Shown: positions 22,371-28,669 of the stretch, piece after piece | Layout: the number at the start of each line of letters is the position of its first letter | Numbering within the stretch: position 1 is the first letter of the stretch | Notes under the pieces: model-generated | Seen by the model: only the letters and a program-made list of their open reading frames with translations | What the model was told of the DNA's origin: nothing | Databases searched by the model: none | Position numbers and translations under genes: made by a program | NCBI RefSeq assembly: GCF_006716785.1 | Contig: NZ_VFPQ01000001.1 | Span: forward strand, 1,674,001 to 1,738,000 | Reading direction: 5' to 3' | Source of the DNA: Thermopolyspora flexuosa | GTDB lineage: Bacteria > Actinomycetota > Actinomycetes > Streptosporangiales > Streptosporangiaceae | Length of the DNA stretch: 64,000 nt

Positions 22371-23807
22371 GTGGGTACAGCGCTGACCGGGCGGGCGAAG
22401 GGGGCGTTCGCGCCACGGTACCGGACCGTCTCCATCGGGATGGTCGTGCTCACCGTGCTCATGGCCTACGAGTACCTGGCGGTGGCGACCGCCATGCCGG
22501 TGGTGGCCCGGGCGTTACACGGCGAGGAGCTCTACGCGCTCGCGTTCAGCGGCTCGCTCGCCGCGGGCGTGGTCGCGATGGTCGGCGGGGGACGGTGGAA
22601 CGACGCCACCGGGCCGCAGGCGCCGATCTGGACCGGCGTGGTCTCGTTCATGATCGGCCTCGCCGTGTCCGGGATGGCGCCGAGCATGGAGGCGTTCATC
22701 GCCGGGCGGCTGCTGCAGGGGTTCGGCGGCGGCCTGTTCTCGGTCTCGCTGTACGTGCTCGTCGGCCGGGTGTACCCGAGCGCGCTGCACCCGAAGGTGT
22801 TCTCGCTGCTCGCCGCCGCCTGGGTGGTGCCCTCCATGGTCGGCCCCGCGATCACCGGCCTGCTCGTGGACGGGCCGGGATGGCGCTGGGTCTTCCTCGG
22901 CGTGCCCGCGGTGACCGCGCCCGCGGCCCTGCTGCTGTGGCGCGGCCTGCGCCGGGTGCGCGAGGCCGAGGAAGCCGCCGAAAACGCCGCCGAGGAGCCC
23001 GCTGACGCCGGGACGCGTCCCGGGGAGAGCGGGGTGGCCGCCGGGTCGGTGTGGGGCAAGCTCGGCTGGGCCGGGGCCGCGGCGGCCGGCGCCGCGCTGC
23101 TGCAGTACGGCGGCGGCCTGCTGCAGCAGGACGACGGGCGGCAGGCCGGGCTCGGCGCGCTGCTCGCCGCCGCCGGGCTCGCCGTGCTCGGGGTGGCCCT
23201 CCCGCCGCTGCTGCCCGCGGGCACCCTGCGGGCAGCCCGCGGCCTGCCCACGGTGATCGCGCTGCGCGGCCTCGCCGCCGGCGCCTTCTACGCGGCCGAG
23301 GTGCTCGTGCCGCTCATGCTCAACGTCCACCGCGGCCTGCCGGTCTGGCAGGCCGGGCTCGCGCTCACCGGCAGCGCCATGGCCTGGTCGTTCGGCTCCT
23401 GGCTGCAGGGGCGGCGGACGTGGAACCGGCGGGTCATCCTGCGCCTCGGCACCGCGCTCATCGGCGTCGGCACCGCCCTGGTGGCGCTCTCCCTGCTCCC
23501 GGCGGTGCCGGTGGTCGTCTGCTTCGCCGCCTGGGCGGTGAGCGGGTTCGGCATCGGCATGGTGTACCCCACGCTCTCGGTGCTCGTGCTCGAGCTGTCC
23601 CCGCCGCAGGAGCGGGGCGCGAACAGCTCCGCCCTCCAGGTCGGCGAGTCGGTGTTCTCGGTGGTCACGGTCGCGGTCACCGGCGCCCTGCTCACCGCCC
23701 TGGGCCGCGGCGAGGCCGCGTACGTGGCCTGTTTCGGGCTCGTGGTGCTGATCACGCTCGCCGGTACCGCGATCGCCGGCCGTTACGCGGTCCGCGGCCC
23801 GGAATGA
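22371..23807 (+). CDS. Major facilitator superfamily exporter
   Basis: 478-residue multi-helix transporter. The first helix (TVSIGMVVLTVLMAYEYLAVATAMPVVAR) follows a short basic N-terminus. GRLLQGFGGGLFSVSLYVLVGRVYP corresponds to the antiporter motif region of drug exporters, and WVVPSMVGPAITGLLVDGPGWRWVFL to motif C. An acidic loop rich in Glu/Ala (REAEEAAENAAEEPADAGTR) separates the two halves. About twelve to fourteen helices are expected. Likely a proton-driven efflux protein; substrate unknown. The start at GTG 22371 is backed by a -10 hexamer 7 nt upstream. Confidence 0.9.
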   Translation: MGTALTGRAKGAFAPRYRTVSIGMVVLTVLMAYEYLAVATAMPVVARALHGEELYALAFSGSLAAGVVAMVGGGRWNDATGPQAPIWTGVVSFMIGLAVSGMAPSMEAFIAGRLLQGFGGGLFSVSLYVLVGRVYPSALHPKVFSLLAAAWVVPSMVGPAITGLLVDGPGWRWVFLGVPAVTAPAALLLWRGLRRVREAEEAAENAAEEPADAGTRPGESGVAAGSVWGKLGWAGAAAAGAALLQYGGGLLQQDDGRQAGLGALLAAAGLAVLGVALPPLLPAGTLRAARGLPTVIALRGLAAGAFYAAEVLVPLMLNVHRGLPVWQAGLALTGSAMAWSFGSWLQGRRTWNRRVILRLGTALIGVGTALVALSLLPAVPVVVCFAAWAVSGFGIGMVYPTLSVLVLELSPPQERGANSSALQVGESVFSVVTVAVTGALLTALGRGEAAYVACFGLVVLITLAGTAIAGRYAVRGPE

Positions 23808-24181: not shown

Positions 24182-25872
<1,691 letters not shown>

Positions 25873-25899
25873 TCCCCGGCTGATCGACCCTAGTTGAGG

Positions 25900-25934
25900 C
25901 CGCCTCCGGTACGGCACCGCCGTACCGGAGGCGG
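25900..25934 (+). terminator. Strong hairpin after xylanase gene
   Basis: A perfect 16-bp stem (CCGCCTCCGGTACGGC at 25900-25915 and its complement at 25919-25934) has a 3-nt loop and is followed by TCCCTTGTTC. It should insulate the next gene. Confidence 0.85.
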
Positions 25935-26024
25935 TCCCTTGTTCGTCCAGGACGGAAGGACCGGTCTGAGCAGGCGCGGCGATCGGGCACCATGGTGGGA
26001 GGCACGAAAGCGGGAGGGGGTCGC

Positions 26025-27065
26025 ATGCCGCGAGTCCGGGAAGTGGAGGTGTTCCACCTGACGCTGCCCTACGGGCGGCGTCCGGAGAGCATCCTCGTCC
26101 GGCTCACCGACCACGGCGGCATGACCGGCTGGGGCGAGATGGTGCACCCCTCCCCGCGGCACGACGGCGCCGAGCACGGGCACGAGCTGCGCAAGACGTG
26201 GGCCGCACTGGAGGAGACGCTCGCGCCCACCCTGCTCGGCGTGGACTGGGAGCACCCGGACGAGCTCGGCGTGCTCCCCGGCGGCCCGGCGGTCGACATG
26301 GCCTGCTGGGATTTGTGGGGCCGGCTCAACGGCGTGCCGCTCGCGCACGCGCTCGGCGGCAGCCGTACCTCGCTGATCGCCACCGCCCGGCTCGCCGCCG
26401 ACCGGTCCACCGAGGCGGTGATCGCCCGGGTGAACCGGCAGGTGTGCGCCGGGTACGCCCACATCACCCTCGACATCCACCCCGGCTGGGACGTCGAGCC
26501 GGTGCGCGCGGTGCGCAAGGCCTACCCCGGGCTCGTGATCACCGTCGACGGCCGGGGCGCCTACCGGGACGTGGAGCAGCTCGTCGCGCTCGACGCCTAC
26601 GGCGTGGCCACGATCGAGCGGCCGTTCGCCGAGCTCGCCCCGCACGTCGAGCTGCAGGAGCGGGTGTCCGCGCTGGTCGCGTTCGAGGCGCACTCGGTGG
26701 ACGAGCTCGCCGCGGCGATCGAGGCGAAGGCCGGGCGGGCGCTGCTGCTGCGGCCGTCCCGGTTCGGCTCGCTCCGCGAGGTACGGCGGGCGCACGACCT
26801 GGCCGTCGAGGCGGGCTGGCAGATCGCGGCCGCGGGCGGCAGCGGCACCGGGCTCGCCCGCGCGGCGACCGTGGCCGTGGGCAGCCTCCCCGGCTGCACC
26901 CTCCCCGCCTACGTGGCCGAGCCGCCGCGCAGCGCCCAGATCGTCAAGCCGCCGGTCGGGCCGTCCGGCGGCGTGGTCGCGGTCCCGCTCACCCAGCCGG
27001 GGCTCGGCCACCTGGTGGACGAGGACCGGGTGCGCCGCCTCGCCACCGACTCGTTCAGGCTGTAG
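26025..27065 (+). CDS. Enolase-superfamily protein, OSBS/NSAR-like but lacking catalytic lysines
   Basis: 346-residue protein that reads like the muconate-cycloisomerase/o-succinylbenzoate-synthase group: an N-terminal capping domain (TDHGGMTGWGEMVHPSP), AVDMACWDLWGRLNGVPLAHALGG, then a barrel. Metal-ligand positions persist as Asp175 (ITVDGRG), Glu198 (ATIERP) and Glu221 (FEAHS). The family K-x-K on strand two is replaced by Thr148-Leu-Asp150 in HITLDIHPGWD, and the opposite lysine by Arg243 in LLRPSRFG. The normal proton-abstraction machinery is therefore missing. It may be a non-catalytic relative or have new chemistry. ATG 26025 is preceded by GGGAGGGGG. Confidence 0.85.
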   Translation: MPRVREVEVFHLTLPYGRRPESILVRLTDHGGMTGWGEMVHPSPRHDGAEHGHELRKTWAALEETLAPTLLGVDWEHPDELGVLPGGPAVDMACWDLWGRLNGVPLAHALGGSRTSLIATARLAADRSTEAVIARVNRQVCAGYAHITLDIHPGWDVEPVRAVRKAYPGLVITVDGRGAYRDVEQLVALDAYGVATIERPFAELAPHVELQERVSALVAFEAHSVDELAAAIEAKAGRALLLRPSRFGSLREVRRAHDLAVEAGWQIAAAGGSGTGLARAATVAVGSLPGCTLPAYVAEPPRSAQIVKPPVGPSGGVVAVPLTQPGLGHLVDEDRVRRLATDSFRL

Positions 27066-27070
27066 CCCGG

Positions 27071-28669
27071 TCAGCGCCGGTCCGCGCCGGCCGTACCGGG
27101 GGAGCCGCAGCCCGCGCCGAGCGCGGTCGGCCGCGCCCGGTCCGCGTCGTCCGGGGCCGTGTTCCGGTCCGTCTTCCCGCCGGAGTTCTTGCCGGAGGCC
27201 TGCGGGGGACGGCTCGCCGCGGGGGAGGCGTCCCGCACCGAGTCGGCGATCGCCTTCCGGGTGAGCCTGCGGATCTTGTCCCAGTCCGGGTAGCCGGTGT
27301 GGATCAGCGGCGGCACGAACTGCAGTCCGGTGACCCTGGCGTCCTTCACCTTCGCCGCGACCGGGACGAGGTGCTTCAGCATCGGCCGGGGGATGTCGGT
27401 GCGGAACATGCCCCTGGTCGCCTCGGCGAGCTGGGTGAACCGGGCGAGCACGGTCGCCGGGTCGGCCTGCTCCAGCAGGGCGTTGAGCACGCAGCGTTGC
27501 CGCCGCATCCGGGTGAAGTCGTCGCTGTTGGTCCGCGAGCGCGCGTACCACATCGCGTCGGCGCCCTTGAGCCGCCGGGTGCCCGCCTTGACCAGGCCCT
27601 CGTTGTACTTGCCGAAGACCACGTCCTGCTCGACGGTGAGGGTGAGCCCGCCGATCGCGTCGATGATCCGGGCGAACCCCCAGATGTTGACGAGCACGTA
27701 CCAGTCGACCTTGAGGCCGAGGGTGTGGCCGACCGCGTCCTTGAGCGCCTCCGGGCCCATGCCGGTGCGCCCGCCGAAGATCTCCGGGTGCCGGTCGGCG
27801 TACTCCCACACCGCGAACAGCAGGTCCTCGCGCGACCCGTCCGGGTTCGGCGGCAGCCGGAAGCCGTCGGGGAACCGCCGGTGCATCGGGCTGCCGGGCG
27901 GGAAGCGCACGTTCTCCAGGTTGCGCGGCAGGCCGAACACGACCGTGTTGCCGGTGCGCAGGTCGACGCTCGCCAGGTTGATGCTGTCGGTGCGCACGCC
28001 CTGGCGGTTCTCCTGCCAGTCGCCGCCGAGCAGCAGGATGTTGATGCGGTCACGGCCCGCCCACGGGTCCTCCGGCGCGGCCTGCGAGGCCGCCGTGGGG
28101 GTGTCGAACACGTCGGCGATCGCCCGGCGCGACACGTCCGCGTACCGGGCCGCCAGGGTGAACGGCACGGCCGTGGCGACCGACAGCGCGCCCGCCACCA
28201 CGCCGGTGACGATCTGGCCGCCCGCCCGCAGCTCGCCCGGGCGCAGCACCACGTACGAGTGCACGATCAGCGCGAACCACGCCAGCGCGATCACGATCGC
28301 GGCGATCGAGATCGTGCCCAGCCACTCCAGCGCCCGGCCCAGCAGATCGGCGTCCGCGGTCAGCGCCACCGCGACGGCGCCCGCGACGAGCACGGCGTAG
28401 ACGCCGAGCAGCGCGAACCCGGTCCGCCGCCATCCCGCGCGCAGGTGCGCGGCGCCCGGGAGCACGGCGGACAGCGCCGTCCACCCGATCACGGCGAGGG
28501 CCCGGCGCGCCGAGGCGCGCCCGCGCGGCGGCGGCGCGGCCCGGGACGGCGTGCCGGCGGATGCGGTTCGGTTGCGGGAGGTGTCCTCGGCCGGGGGCGA
28601 TCCGGCGCCCATGGCGGTGGGCTTCGTGGGATCCGCCCCGTTCCCCGGCGGTGTGCTGCGTGTCGACAC
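27071..28669 (-). CDS. LytR-CpsA-Psr (LCP) family cell-wall ligase
   Basis: 532-residue membrane protein, expected to transfer phosphate-linked glycopolymers to peptidoglycan. The cytoplasmic N-terminus is Ser/Pro/Arg-rich; four membrane helices lie near 56-75, 83-103, 117-140 and 152-172, more than the single anchor of most LCP proteins. The extracellular LCP domain follows: INILLLGGD, GVRTDSINLASVD at 224-236, GLPRNLENV, DAIGGLTLTVE, and MWYARSRTNSDDFTRMRRQRCVL. A disordered, charged C-terminal tail ends it. The start is GTG 28669 with AGAGGAGT just upstream; -10 TACGCT lies about 30 bp before it. Confidence 0.9.
   Translation of the reverse strand: MSTRSTPPGNGADPTKPTAMGAGSPPAEDTSRNRTASAGTPSRAAPPPRGRASARRALAVIGWTALSAVLPGAAHLRAGWRRTGFALLGVYAVLVAGAVAVALTADADLLGRALEWLGTISIAAIVIALAWFALIVHSYVVLRPGELRAGGQIVTGVVAGALSVATAVPFTLAARYADVSRRAIADVFDTPTAASQAAPEDPWAGRDRINILLLGGDWQENRQGVRTDSINLASVDLRTGNTVVFGLPRNLENVRFPPGSPMHRRFPDGFRLPPNPDGSREDLLFAVWEYADRHPEIFGGRTGMGPEALKDAVGHTLGLKVDWYVLVNIWGFARIIDAIGGLTLTVEQDVVFGKYNEGLVKAGTRRLKGADAMWYARSRTNSDDFTRMRRQRCVLNALLEQADPATVLARFTQLAEATRGMFRTDIPRPMLKHLVPVAAKVKDARVTGLQFVPPLIHTGYPDWDKIRRLTRKAIADSVRDASPAASRPPQASGKNSGGKTDRNTAPDDADRARPTALGAGCGSPGTAGADRR

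Follow-up and report, generated by a model that had tools for sequence, protein, structure and literature searches.

A predicted pseudoenzyme of the enolase superfamily in a conserved actinomycete clade without the catalytic lysines of N-acylamino acid racemases

The defining trait of the enolase superfamily is its conserved metal and acid/base chemistry. What, then, is the function of a member that has lost its acid/base residues? The question is raised by a gene of Thermopolyspora flexuosa that lies in the 64,000-nucleotide stretch of DNA analyzed here (the window). A first-pass annotation, made from the letters alone, had described its product as an end-to-end relative of OSBS/N-acylamino acid racemase (NSAR) proteins in which all catalytic lysines are replaced. 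Here, we ask how far the replacement extends among relatives, whether the gene is maintained, and which role its conservation and its gene neighbors suggest.

An NSAR/OSBS-like fold without catalytic lysines

The open reading frame is intact, running from an ATG at 26025 to a stop codon at 27063-27065. The start is conserved, with an M-P N terminus common to relatives in the alignments, and a purine run 5' of the ATG could act as a ribosome-binding site. The product has the capping domain and modified TIM barrel of the enolase superfamily, as detected by Pfam (MR_MLE_N, 28.2 bits against a cut-off of 22; MR_MLE_C, 79.8 bits against a cut-off of 29.4) and in an AF2 model (mean pLDDT 72.6; residues 121-270 in blocks at 78-96; residues 299-330 below 50). 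N-acylamino acid racemases are its best solved relatives (E 1e-35 by phmmer, 1e-50 by profile), and the best structural matches of the model are likewise NSAR chains, with 2zc8 first (Foldseek TM 0.72 by query; VIA Z 28.9, rmsd 4.2, and 327 aligned residues, with rows within 1 Z being tied). The window protein thus resembles members of the MLE subgroup (e.g., 2ZC8, 1R0M, and 1SJB) in fold, in the places of the three metal acids, and at 25-30% identity, bearing out the end-to-end likeness first described. Searches with the window protein and with its subclade profile found no solved structure of any clade member.

According to the available text of one study, NSAR/OSBS proteins use a lysine pair as bases (PMC8142540). 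At the place of this K-x-K pair, the window protein has T-L-D, and the third lysine of the family, on the facing strand, is R243 (Table 1). HMMER and MAFFT agree on both assignments, as the first-pass annotation had read them. The predicted metal site is occupied by acids (D175/E198/E221), the third being Glu rather than the Asp of canonical members and lying beside a two-residue alignment gap. In the AF2 model, barrel strands end at residues 150, 175, 198, 221, and 242; the three acids thus sit where successive strands finish, as the mechanism of the superfamily demands. The acid/base groups are indeed gone: the only four lysines are K57, K165, K235, and K308, none of which aligns with a catalytic place, and no invariant lysine was found in the group in either the subclade or the wider alignments. 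Despite the end-to-end similarity to NSAR, it is therefore extremely improbable that the protein is an ordinary OSBS/NSAR with its catalytic lysines elsewhere in the sequence. Its score against the NCBIfam menC/OSBS model TIGR01928 is also far below the family cut-off (107.3 versus 200.65 bits), and lysines at alternative positions were rejected as candidates because none is conserved.

Table 1. Features of the locus, with positions counted from the first letter of the window; residue counts refer to aligned sequences of subclade A
Feature	Position	Strand	Basis
MFS transporter	22371..23807	+	Neighborhood comparison; Pfam of a homologue (L056)
GH10 xylanase with ricin-type lectin domain	24394..25872	+	Pfam, neighborhood comparison
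Terminator-like hairpin, 18 pairs, between the xylanase gene and the target	25898..25936	+	1 found versus 0.1 expected in shuffles
Lysine-less enolase-superfamily protein, NSAR/OSBS-like, 346 aa	26025..27065	+	ORF, Pfam, HMMER, AF2 model
T148-L149-D150 codons, at the catalytic K-x-K place	26466..26474	+	HMMER and MAFFT; T148 in 81/81, D150 in 79/81
D175 codon, first metal-ligand position	26547..26549	+	HMMER and MAFFT; D in 81/81
E198 codon, second metal-ligand position	26616..26618	+	HMMER and MAFFT; E in 78/81, Q in 3
E221 codon, third metal-ligand position	26685..26687	+	HMMER and MAFFT; E in 77, D in 4 of 81
R243 codon, at the third catalytic lysine place	26751..26753	+	HMMER and MAFFT; R in 79/81
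LytR-CpsA-Psr (LCP) family protein, convergent neighbor	27071..28669	-	Pfam, neighborhood comparison

A single-origin clade under purifying selection

Relatives of the gene are widespread in the GTDB family of the window. Among 150 genomes drawn from this family, 129 had a match at E 1e-10, 8 of the 129 having weaker matches only (best E 4.6e-32 or worse). In 121 of the 150, a match was found at E 2.6e-59 or better; these were not all typed by residue, and the best match of one of them (G026) is a canonical K-x-K/K protein. A class-level draw of 394 genomes gave 142 with a match at E 1e-20, and all eight sequences read from outside the family (L155 to L162) were K-L-K/K. The resulting alignment held 175 distinct proteins, of which 17 are K-L-K/K, whereas two or all three of the lysines are absent from the other 158; exceptions among the latter are Lys243 in L032 and Lys150 in L118.

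The lysine-less sequences comprise three subclades. Subclade A (T-x-D/R; 85 sequences) includes the window protein, and its genera include Sphaerisporangium, Microtetraspora, Microbispora, Streptosporangium, and Nonomuraea; the annotation had asked whether the T-L-D form marks a conserved clade, and the residue counts for orthologues in Table 1 indicate that it does. Subclade B (T-x-variable) has 50 sequences and subclade C (R-x-variable, mostly R-L-E) has 23. One sequence counted in B, L136 (T-L-T, D-R-D, and R), branches near the base in the FastTree tree. Six further lysine-less copies fit the pattern, three being T-x-D/R and the others R-L-Q/R, R-L-E/R, and R-L-G/R. In FastTree with all 175 sequences, the 17 K-x-K/K proteins were paraphyletic around the 158. 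Maximum likelihood analysis of 67 sequences with IQ-TREE placed all 50 lysine-less ones in one clade (SH-aLRT 99.8/UFBoot 100), within which the R clade (23 sequences) and the T clade without L136 (26 sequences) each received 100/100; the basal branching with L136 is unsettled (39.8/80). We conclude that the lysine-less clade is nested among canonical, lysine-bearing relatives and has a single origin in the sampled tree. The acid/base lysines would accordingly have been lost once, from an NSAR relative, in an ancestor within the GTDB family of the window, with mostly vertical descent since.

The clade is under purifying selection. With each sequence used once and no selected pair dropped, NG86 dN/dS had a median of 0.18 and a maximum of 0.49 over 60 lysine-less pairs, compared to 0.21-0.24 over five canonical pairs. 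Catalytic residues have thus been lost in a conserved clade that selection maintains, the pattern by which a pseudoenzyme is recognized. Loss of these residues might also be expected of a decaying pseudogene, a reading whose probability is close to nil given the low dN/dS, the many invariant positions, the absence of internal stop codons among the matches listed in the family-genome search, and the occurrence of matches in 121 of the 150 genomes drawn from the family (not every one of which was typed as lysine-less). Since the loss is common to relatives in many actinomycetes, the protein is most likely retained for a role different from the former reaction.

One member of the clade has very likely been flagged in print already. 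L142, in subclade C, reads R148-L-H150 and has the only His150 among the 158. The protein AAZ54998 (gi 71915096), which we take to be from Thermobifida fusca, is annotated as OSBS. The available text of PMC2781113 reports that AAZ54998 carries His at the position of Lys166, along with other changes in its motifs, and considers its function likely new and unknown; it cites a 2006 J Mol Biol paper that argued for unknown function of the His166 protein partly from genome context. Given the R-L-H of L142 at that place, AAZ54998 is probably a subclade C member, the same as or near-identical to L142. It differs from the window's subclade, in which the motif is T-x-D and the metal acids are retained, and the text of PMC2781113 seen here treats this one protein, whereas a clade is described here. 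In a literature search lying outside most subscription journals, we found no published account of the clade, its single origin, or the graded loss of its metal site. The names OSBS and N-acylamino acid racemase may be wrong for some of the records that bear them.

Residue drift and the remaining pocket

Conservation of the pocket differs between subclades. The complete acidic metal triad is present in 82/85 sequences of subclade A, 21/50 of B, and 4/23 of C; the first-pass statement that the acidic metal positions are kept therefore stands for the window protein (Asp being replaced by Glu at the third) and its subclade, but not for the sister subclades. Outside subclade A, positions 150 and 243 vary as well. 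Over the 158 sequences, position 150 is D in 114, E in 23, R in 5, A in 5, T in 4, N in 2, G in 2, and K, H, or P in 1 each, while position 243 is R in 143, D in 9, S in 3, and K, H, or N in 1 each. With the triad eroded in B and C and these two positions drifting, the clade as a whole cannot need the triad or one fixed dyad. Canonical invariants elsewhere, including S122, N177, M272, and P45/Y47/E53, have been substituted or deleted in most lysine-less forms, and N137 has been gained (158/158 lysine-less versus 1/17 canonical).

In subclade A, D150 and R243 would face each other at the old lysine places and probably pair across the pocket. A charge-swapped lineage (K/D and R/D, with relatives T/D, T/N, and R/S) fits a 150-243 salt bridge. 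We rejected covariation as proof of such a bridge, as six subclade C sequences with E150 and D243 do not fit it.

These residue patterns, together with homology and fold, suggest that the window protein is probably a pseudoenzyme, without racemase/OSBS-type catalysis and retained for binding or scaffolding; its barrel and cap may still bind a ligand or a protein partner. Homology and fold, the absence of the three lysines, the single origin, purifying selection, and the loss of the triad in much of the clade all support this reading, as do the loss of other canonical invariants and the persistence of the gene in genomes in which no canonical NSAR was found (see below). The annotation's suggestion of a binding or regulatory protein gains support, the T-x-D form being a conserved clade under purifying selection. 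Against the pseudoenzyme reading, D150, R243, and the three acids are retained almost throughout subclade A, which is what an active metal-dependent site would show.

In the main rival reading, subclade A proteins are active enzymes of new chemistry, in which D175/E198/E221 would hold the metal, D150 would act as the base, and R243 would act as an electrophile or acid. Near-invariance of these positions in 81 sequences, together with the 82/85 retention of the triad, speaks for metal-dependent chemistry in this subclade; new chemistry with Asp150 or Arg243 was one of the outcomes raised by the annotation. The proposal is weakened, however, by the sister subclades, which descend from the same lysine-less ancestor and often lose the third ligand, and in which 150/243 vary to the point of K150/D243 and R150/D243; further canonical invariants have changed too. 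Conservation within subclade A singles out the pocket neither way, because D150 comes only 113th and R243 only 125th when the 346 positions are ordered by conservation. On balance, we consider new chemistry unlikely. If the pseudoenzyme reading holds, a single-origin clade without lysines, partly without a metal site, and with dN/dS close to that of its canonical relatives would offer a natural series on what a TIM-barrel enzyme fold serves after catalysis.

Canonical paralogues and gene neighborhoods

NSARs of the D-to-L amino acid pathway have a GNAT N-acyltransferase and an M20 hydrolase as gene neighbors. Eight canonical loci were retrieved together with their flanks; a GNAT-like gene lay near all 8 and an M20-like gene near 7. 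As far as neighbor clustering sees, neither kind lies near the lysine-less loci, including that of the window. The lysine-less forms thus depart from NSAR/OSBS in their neighbors as well as in their changed invariants and in scoring below the menC cut-off (an exception is given below).

The genome of the window does encode a separate, intact canonical K-L-K/K NSAR whose neighbor is a GNAT-like gene (19.9 bits, slightly below the Pfam cut-off of 20.7). Such a copy would be expected if the lysine-less protein were an inactive partner subunit associating with the canonical NSAR of the same cell to regulate it. A catalytically dead paralogue of trypanosomatid deoxyhypusine synthase, likewise a conserved relative without catalytic residues, activates its live paralogue, according to the available text of PMC3663545. 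Among 24 chosen genomes, however, a second protein over the TIGR01928 cut-off was found in only 6, all of subclade A and all six K-x-K/K. A seventh genome (G054) had a row over the cut-off that proved to be its own lysine-less protein. In 18 of the 24, including all 5 of subclade B and all 12 of subclade C, no canonical NSAR scored over this cut-off, unlike the trypanosomatid case with its live paralogue. The lysine-less protein is hence not an obligate NSAR subunit. Outside the 24, K-L-K/K copies occur in four subclade B genomes (those of L139, L140, L141, and L144) and in 8/60 genomes of the subclade B genus g38; in this genus, at E 1e-50, a threshold that would miss more distant NSARs, 50/60 genomes gave one match only and 2 gave none. 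Taken together, these distributions make a partner-subunit role highly unlikely.

We found no conserved operon partner for the whole clade by neighborhood clustering; none unites the three subclades, which counts against the pseudoenzyme reading. An MFS homologue is the immediate upstream same-strand neighbor in 64/80 subclade A loci but not in the window, where the GH10 xylanase gene separates the two. The xylanase takes that place in 2/80 subclade A loci, those of the window and L035. The hairpin that follows the xylanase gene makes read-through from upstream into the target unlikely. Downstream, a convergent LCP-family gene comes next in 45/80 subclade A loci, and an LCP homologue lies at most six genes away in 16/20 subclade B loci.

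Further neighbors are specific to single subclades. Upstream of the MFS gene in A loci (L036 to L114), four gene clusters occur within six genes of the target, and we take these to be VWA (69/80), DUF5682-like (66/80), MoxR-type ATPase (57/80), and DUF5691-like (39/80) genes; in the window, none of the four was seen at this distance. A small AAA_33 P-loop kinase-like gene lies 3' of the target in 10/20 subclade B loci (L118-L121, L123-L125, L130, L131, and L133). Its spacing ranges from an overlap of 4 nt to a gap of 102 nt with a median overlap of 4 nt, so that the two genes are probably translated together in these loci.

Subclade C has neighbors of another kind, namely, genes of a cluster that is presumably AlaDH-like and homologues of allantoinase. 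An allantoinase homologue lies ∼0.3-3.8 kb from the gene in 10/12 flanked loci of subclade C plus L136 (cluster-22 genes in L136-L138, L142, L143, and L145-L149; absent in L150 and L151); the allantoinase homologues L216-L226 likewise lack H-x-H and further metal ligands. The H-x-H motif, which we take to be the metal motif, is missing in 10/10 of these homologues, and two further aligned Lys and Asp places, presumably the metal-bridging Lys and Asp, are changed too. The NCBIfam model AllB gives 292 bits, below its cut-off of 358. Among 28 genomes chosen for a search, the dead form was present in 11/12 subclade C genomes, G063 being the exception. The other 16 of the 28 yielded no dead copy, and four of these were without any match. 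The other 19 allantoinase copies read, among the 30 of 33 matches listed, all keep H-V-H, and an H-V-H copy also occurs elsewhere in 6 of the 11 genomes that have the dead form.

A racemase and a neighboring allantoinase might have lost their catalytic residues in the same lineage and come to form a paired noncatalytic module that senses ureides or N-acyl/N-carbamoyl amino acids, for instance, or acts as a scaffold for them, and of which the window's subclade would keep the racemase-derived half only, possibly serving the MFS transporter or the LCP protein. We regard this reading as quite unlikely.

Among the records consulted, the 11.85-Mb, chromosome-sized NZ_LT559118.1 of Nonomuraea gerenzanensis (L215) is filed as a plasmid and carries 10 annotated features.
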